From Candidatus Amoebophilus asiaticus 5a2 (GTDB lineage Bacteria > Bacteroidota > Bacteroidia > Cytophagales > Amoebophilaceae): DNA of 64,000 nt. Position numbers and translations under genes: made by a program. Shown piece by piece: positions 51,872 to 52,531 of the stretch (positions are counted from its first letter, which is position 1; every line of letters begins with the position of its first letter). A model generated the notes under the pieces. It made no database searches and was not told the DNA's origin. It saw only the letters and a program-made list of their open reading frames with translations. The DNA is taken from the NCBI RefSeq assembly GCF_000020565.1, contig NC_010830.1, positions 1,530,001-1,594,000 of the forward strand. Reading direction: 5' to 3'.

Positions 51872-52531
51872 TTATTTGTTTACATCTAACCTAACCATAT
51901 CTTTAACAGCTTGTAGGAATTGTACAATATTGATTATTTGCTTCACTACAAATAAGCTTCCAAATAAATAAGTAAATATAGGATATGCACAACTTTCAAG
52001 ATAAGGATCAAGTGCTAACTGTATTTTAAAACGACGCATATATAACCATAGCAGATATATCTCGCTACCTAAACATAATAAAAATAACATAGGCTTGTAA
52101 CCATAATATATTCTTAAAATCGAGAACTGATTTTTAGCAATAGACTTATGTGACTTTTTACCATAAGAAAGTGAACTATAGATATACGTAAAATGAGATA
52201 TAACATCTAAGAGTATTATAACAATGAAGTATTGTATGTAAGCAGGATAAAAATTAGATAAAATAATTAATAACGCTGTCGTAGAAGATCTGTCAATCAT
52301 CATATCAAGCATAGCCCCATAAGCACTTGCTTGGTTTAGGCGACGGGCAATATATCCGTCTAAGCTATCTAATAATTGACTAATACCATATAAGGTTATA
52401 AACCAATATGGCTTACTGAAACACACATAAAAGGCTAAAACGGATAATAATGTTCTAATATAGCCAACTATATTGGGGATAAGTAAATACACACTGTATG
52501 AATTCCACTTTTTTACATTTATGTGCTCCAT
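51872..52531 (-). CDS. Phosphatidylinositol synthase-like CDP-alcohol phosphatidyltransferase (eukaryotic type)
   Basis: 219 residues with about six membrane helices. The complete CDP-alcohol phosphotransferase motif is present: D55, D58-G59-x2-A62-R63, G72, D76, D80. Beyond this general motif, IPNIVGYIRTLLSVLAFY, ARRLNQASAYGAMLDMMIDR, SHFTYIYSS, SHKSI and LRIYY correspond, as I remember it, to the eukaryotic PI synthase (CDIPT/Pis1), including order and spacing. The eukaryotic enzyme makes phosphatidylinositol from CDP-diacylglycerol and free inositol. It looks like a gene taken from a eukaryotic host. Function and origin are inferred; no alignment was run. Confidence 0.8.
   Translation of the reverse strand: MEHINVKKWNSYSVYLLIPNIVGYIRTLLSVLAFYVCFSKPYWFITLYGISQLLDSLDGYIARRLNQASAYGAMLDMMIDRSSTTALLIILSNFYPAYIQYFIVIILLDVISHFTYIYSSLSYGKKSHKSIAKNQFSILRIYYGYKPMLFLLCLGSEIYLLWLYMRRFKIQLALDPYLESCAYPIFTYLFGSLFVVKQIINIVQFLQAVKDMVRLDVNK

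Follow-up and report, generated by a model that had tools for sequence, protein, structure and literature searches.

Gene and protein at the locus

The window, by which we mean the whole stretch of 64,000 nucleotides of Candidatus Amoebophilus asiaticus 5a2 that was analysed, contains on its reverse strand, at positions 51872-52531, an open reading frame that begins with ATG and has no internal stops, so that it is intact and encodes a protein of 219 amino acids. We annotate it as a eukaryotic-type phosphatidylinositol (PI) synthase of the CDIPT/Pis1 type, based on the reading frame itself, the Pfam match, the alignments, the tree with its AU tests and the ranking by bit score. The protein matches the Pfam family CDP-OH_P_transf (PF01066) with 66.9 bits (E 3.5e-18, cut-off 22), and the regular-expression search together with Pfam recovers the full CDP-alcohol phosphotransferase signature, D55xxD58G59xxA62R63...G72xxxD76xxxD80, with 8/8 signature residues present between residues 55 and 80 (52292-52369, reverse strand). 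After the role described in PMC4634129, these residues make up the metal and CDP-DAG site, with Asp80 as the catalytic aspartate. Two further features on the same strand are His113 of the LDxxSH motif (52193-52195), which the alignments show to be invariant in all aligned PI synthases, and the SHK motif at residues 127-129 (52145-52153), which by the motif counts is specific to the PI-synthase type. About 100 bp upstream of the gene lies a divergent tRNA-Lys(UUU) on the forward strand (52633-52706).

It is noted that none of the NCBIfam subfamily models reaches its own cut-off on the 219-residue protein, which falls below the equivalog cut-offs of pgsA (36.4 versus 109.1) and of pssA (26.1 versus 107). 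Viewed against the six-helix membrane fold of class I CDP-alcohol phosphotransferases, the AlphaFold model is all-helical and of modest quality (pLDDT 67.6, pTM 0.56), and its top 15 PDB matches are all CDP-alcohol phosphotransferases, these matches being weak and none having E below 0.001; among PDB sequences the search turned up nothing annotated as eukaryotic PI synthase. The protein is a multi-pass membrane protein with no evident export signal. With regard to expression, RNA-seq of Amoebophilus gave 99.9-100% of the predicted genes as expressed, a genome-wide figure (PMC8831229).

Relation to eukaryotic PI synthases and to other CDP-alcohol phosphotransferases

In a full-length alignment with human CDIPT, yeast Pis1 and Arabidopsis PIS1, the window protein has 35-36% identity and 44 invariant columns, which is to be taken as a lead only. 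An independent eukaryotic PI synthase, L008, is equally similar to the window protein (139 bits), and with its spliced protein included the identity to the eukaryotic enzymes is 35-38% over nearly the full length. The L008 gene has three GT-AG introns, the splicing of which gives one open protein; its contig, which is filed under a Verrucomicrobiaceae MAG and has by eye an EMP70/TM9-like neighbour, is eukaryotic contamination. As a eukaryotic contig with introns, L008 was rejected as a bacterial carrier and retained as a eukaryotic reference.

Compared with a mixed panel, the window protein reaches 133-139 bits with the four proteins from eukaryotes, 98-120 bits with the other bacterial PI-synthase-type proteins outside the genus, and at most 40 bits with PgsA, ClsA, PIPS and PssA. 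Since the best comparison with PgsA, PIPS or PssA reaches only 40 bits, the match to CDIPT/Pis1 is far beyond chance. The window protein shares with CDIPT, Pis1 and PIS1 the length, the PNxxGYxR motif, the DxxDGxxAR...GxxxDxxxD core, the LDxxSH, [SH]HK and YY motifs and an invariant C-terminal Lys and Asp, while its gene differs from theirs in being intronless and in lying in a bacterial genome. PNxxGYxR and [SH]HK are each present in 11/11 PI-synthase-type proteins and in 0/23 other CDP-alcohol phosphotransferases, and in the alignments LDxxSH and YY are conserved in all 11 of the former. His113 of the window protein aligns with His114 of yeast Pis1, the mutation of which, as we take it, raises the Km for inositol, implying a role in inositol affinity.

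In the tree, all 11 PI-synthase-type proteins fall in one clade with support 99/100, and the AU tests reject the grouping of Amoebophilus with PIPS (p 0.00047) and with the Bacteroidota PgsA/Cls (p 1e-95). PgsA, ClsA and PssA have the superfamily and the signature in common with the window protein, but they match it mainly round the core and form separate clades, and PssA is a separate gene (L001) in the same genome. An earlier, sequence-only reading of this DNA had proposed a complete CDP-alcohol phosphotransferase motif, a eukaryotic-type PI synthase in place of a PgsA or PssA, and a correspondence of stretches outside the core (SHFTYIYSS, SHKSI, LRIYY and others) to CDIPT/Pis1; these proposals agree with the present results, the stretches aligning with the human, yeast and Arabidopsis enzymes and neither the best hits nor the tree placing the protein with PgsA or PssA. 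By its sequence, the window gene encodes a CDIPT/Pis1-type CDP-alcohol phosphotransferase; as an enzyme it is nothing out of the ordinary within its known family, and what is unusual is the place where it occurs.

Acceptor substrate

The bacterial PIP synthases (mycobacterial PgsA1/PIPS, Bacteroides BT_1523) share with the window protein the superfamily, the CDP-DAG site and the inositol-type headgroup chemistry, but they use inositol-phosphate and need MIPS and a phosphatase. In these enzymes two arginines bind the phosphate of inositol-phosphate, R153 and R191 of RsPIPS, one of them lying in an RxxR motif in TM5 (Clarke et al., PMC4634129). Downstream of the core, the RxxR is found as RPER or RQER at the expected place in 4/4 Bacteroidota PIPS, whereas at that place it is absent in 11/11 PI-synthase-type proteins, the window protein included; a terminal RLDR in the L003 protein is at the wrong place for it. 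This arginine test consisted of a motif search and a multiple alignment, the profile-profile comparison with PIPS having aligned the core only, and the TM6 arginine was judged from the alignment only. From the lack of the RxxR at the PIPS place and the alignment of His113 with the yeast histidine, we infer that free inositol is the best-supported acceptor, and the likely reaction would be that of CDP-DAG with host-derived free inositol to give PI and CMP.

Occurrence and conservation

When 84,980 species genomes were scanned by motif, a restrictive search that may miss divergent carriers, six loci came out, 5 of them truly bacterial: one in Amoebophilus, three in Pleurocapsaceae, one in a gammaproteobacterial MAG and one in a eukaryotic contaminant. 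The Pleurocapsaceae genes (L004:5986-6642, L005:6010-6657 and L007:5986-6657) are in bacterial context; one of the three carriers is an isolate, where the gene adjoins a prolyl-tRNA synthetase gene, and MIPS was not found in the three carrier genomes. A divergent PI-synthase-type gene (L006:1921-2541) lies near mraZ-like and MscS-type genes in the gammaproteobacterial MAG, which is 2.0 Mb in size. The proteins of these four loci have the same motifs as the window protein and 32-36% identity, with the difference that L006 has HHK in place of SHK. The PI-synthase type is not confined to Amoebophilus. Scans of viral contigs and plasmids gave no relatives of the window PI synthase. Distant matches in Amoebophilaceae and Cytophagales (up to 45 bits) were rejected as PssA or other CDP-alcohol phosphotransferases, and the order search centred on the gammaproteobacterial carrier genome returned that genome only.

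Within the family, the gene is present in 3/3 Amoebophilus genomes and in 0/18 other genomes. In all three it stands 82-101 bp from the divergent tRNA-Lys(UUU), and the window and 'Candidatus Amoebophilus sp. 36-38' (L003) have the common order MurF-HflX-tRNA-Arg...PIS-tRNA-Lys...XerD. Between the Amoebophilus species the PI synthases are 51-59% identical with all catalytic residues kept; set beside the neighbouring genes of the window and L003, the identity of the PI synthases is 60%, below that of HflX (78%) and of MurF (65%). The same tRNA-Lys neighbour and the gene order common to the window and L003 indicate one acquisition before the sampled Amoebophilus species split and stable keeping of the gene since.

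Origin of the gene

That the gene is amoeba DNA brought in during assembly has a precedent in the intron-bearing L008 contig in a Verrucomicrobiaceae MAG, but the genome that holds the window gene is a single contig of 1,884,364 bases, the gene is intronless and AT-rich like its neighbourhood, and the same tRNA-Lys stands next to it in each of three separate genomes; the conserved synteny refutes contamination, the probability of which we take to be negligible. Another explanation is that PI synthase is of ancient bacterial descent, with survivors in Amoebophilus, Pleurocapsaceae and one gammaproteobacterium, and came to eukaryotes when their ancestor received it; the gene studied here would then be a bacterial original or the product of bacterium-to-bacterium transfer rather than a eukaryotic acquisition. 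With four eukaryotic sequences only (human, yeast, Arabidopsis and L008), the AU tests do not reject a clade of the eukaryotes (p 0.38) or a clade of the bacteria (p 0.39). A smaller tree with long branches (AU p 0.028 to 0.47) does not reject the bacterial PI synthases as one clade either (p 0.32), and it mildly rejects a group of eukaryotes and Amoebophilus (p 0.028). The trees are compatible both with a place of the Amoebophilus proteins inside the eukaryotes, which the sequence-only reading had named as support for transfer, and with a place outside them; the amoeba as donor, which that reading inferred, is hypothetical. An old family also accords with the presence of carriers in three unrelated bacterial phyla. 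Against it stand the extreme rarity of the type, with only the 5 real bacterial loci among the species genomes scanned and no further clear carrier among 291 order members or 395 phylum members (Amoebophilus scoring at least 289 bits, other members about 52 or less), and the higher scores of the window protein with eukaryotes than with the other bacteria. We regard this explanation as unlikely; with the bacterial occurrence being so rare and patchy, transfer from eukaryotes to bacteria, perhaps more than once, is favoured.

Lipid pathway context

CdsA and Psd are present in the window genome, which has only two PF01066 genes, the window gene and PssA, the latter with 110.3 bits against a cut-off of 107. 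MIPS (PF07994) was found in 0/8 checked genomes, including G000, G001, G002 and other carriers, with the Bacteroides control positive, and no inositol monophosphatase exceeds the cut-off in the three Amoebophilus genomes. It would follow that inositol must come from the host, and the genome is compatible with the earlier suggestion that free host inositol is the substrate. No intact copy of PgsA was found in 21 family genomes. A decayed ClsA/PgsA-like relic with several stops, adjoining a clpX-like gene (L080, G002:C85:8257-8595), apparently shows the PG/cardiolipin branch in the course of being lost; a 2012 paper had already noted that phospholipid synthesis is truncated in Amoebophilus and Cardinium (PMC3486910). 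In such a genome PI may be the main self-made anionic lipid. The sister genera are without both PgsA and PI synthase, so that PI is not a necessary replacement and the idea of necessity is weakened.

Proposed role

The family to which the enzyme belongs, its intact active site and the genomes that have or lack the gene are shown directly by the data; its substrate, its location in the membrane, where the inositol comes from, which way the gene was transferred and what it does for the cell are what we infer here. With high probability, in our view, the gene encodes a one-step PI synthase of the CDIPT/Pis1 kind that came into the genome most likely from a eukaryote, with PI being used as an anionic membrane lipid. 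The symbiont's own CdsA would supply CDP-diacylglycerol, free myo-inositol would be taken up from the amoeba by a putative transporter, and in the inner membrane of the bacterium the membrane-embedded enzyme would join the phosphatidyl group to inositol, forming PI with release of CMP. The gene would have been gained, most likely from a eukaryote, beside tRNA-Lys before the split of the three Amoebophilus species sampled, and kept since; PI would then be an anionic lipid in the membrane of a bacterium whose PgsA (PG/cardiolipin) branch has been lost. More tentatively, the membrane may consist of PE and PI, the eukaryotic PI synthase replacing the PG/cardiolipin branch, so that host inositol would be the source of the one anionic end-product phospholipid that the symbiont makes itself; comparable genes from eukaryotes would then have entered cyanobacteria and a gammaproteobacterium independently, making the one-step PI pathway recurrent in bacteria.

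Two other possibilities concern the product and its use. The enzyme could employ another acceptor (inositol phosphate, glycerol phosphate or another polyol), thus replacing the lost PgsA or making PIP, which we consider improbable: the sequence gives the acceptor without certainty and a replacement would be useful in a genome without PgsA, but the PI-synthase-specific motifs are all conserved, the phosphate-binding RxxR is missing, the AU tests reject both the PIPS and the PgsA groupings, and there is no MIPS to make inositol phosphate. The idea that PI serves the host interface, altering amoeba membranes or feeding host PI kinases via vesicles or exchange, which takes up the suggestion of the sequence-only reading that PI could mimic or alter host membranes, fits the intracellular lifestyle and a carrier genome that is rich in eukaryotic-like proteins (PMC8831229). 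However, nothing recognisable as a PI kinase, lipid-transfer or secretion gene lies beside the window gene, the enzyme is a multi-pass membrane protein lacking an evident export signal, and the same type is present in cyanobacteria, which suggests a general membrane-lipid role. We give this idea a low probability; host-membrane mimicry is speculation, and the role of PI as a membrane lipid of the bacterium itself is simpler and plainer.

Textbooks treat the one-step formation of PI from free inositol as a route that bacteria do not use. Conservation in bacteria of a gene for the eukaryotic one-step enzyme would break the rule that inositol lipids of bacteria are made from inositol-phosphate via PIP, as they are described (PMC4634129, PMC9246714), and would show an endosymbiont taking over a host lipid pathway. 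Inositol is not mentioned in the Amoebophilus transcriptome paper (PMC8831229) or the Cardinium comparative genome paper (PMC3486910), and our search of the open-access literature gave no paper describing the Amoebophilus PI-synthase gene. The testable questions raised are whether host inositol goes into the symbiont's own PI and whether PI stands in place of PG and cardiolipin; moreover, the small bacterial homologues offer themselves for structural work on PI synthase.

Finally, we note some other features of the neighbourhood. At 49104-50678 (reverse strand) the window encodes a 524-residue fusion of a haem-oxygenase/TENA-fold domain and a class I methyltransferase, the former domain resembling the CADD folate family with 67 bits against a cut-off of 200. 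The spore-photoproduct-lyase-family protein at 53301-54176 (forward strand) starts at profile position 63, its N-terminus apparently missing. Near-identical transposase fragments lie at 48154-48982 of the window (reverse strand) and at L001:16-654, that is, beside the window region and beside the PssA locus.
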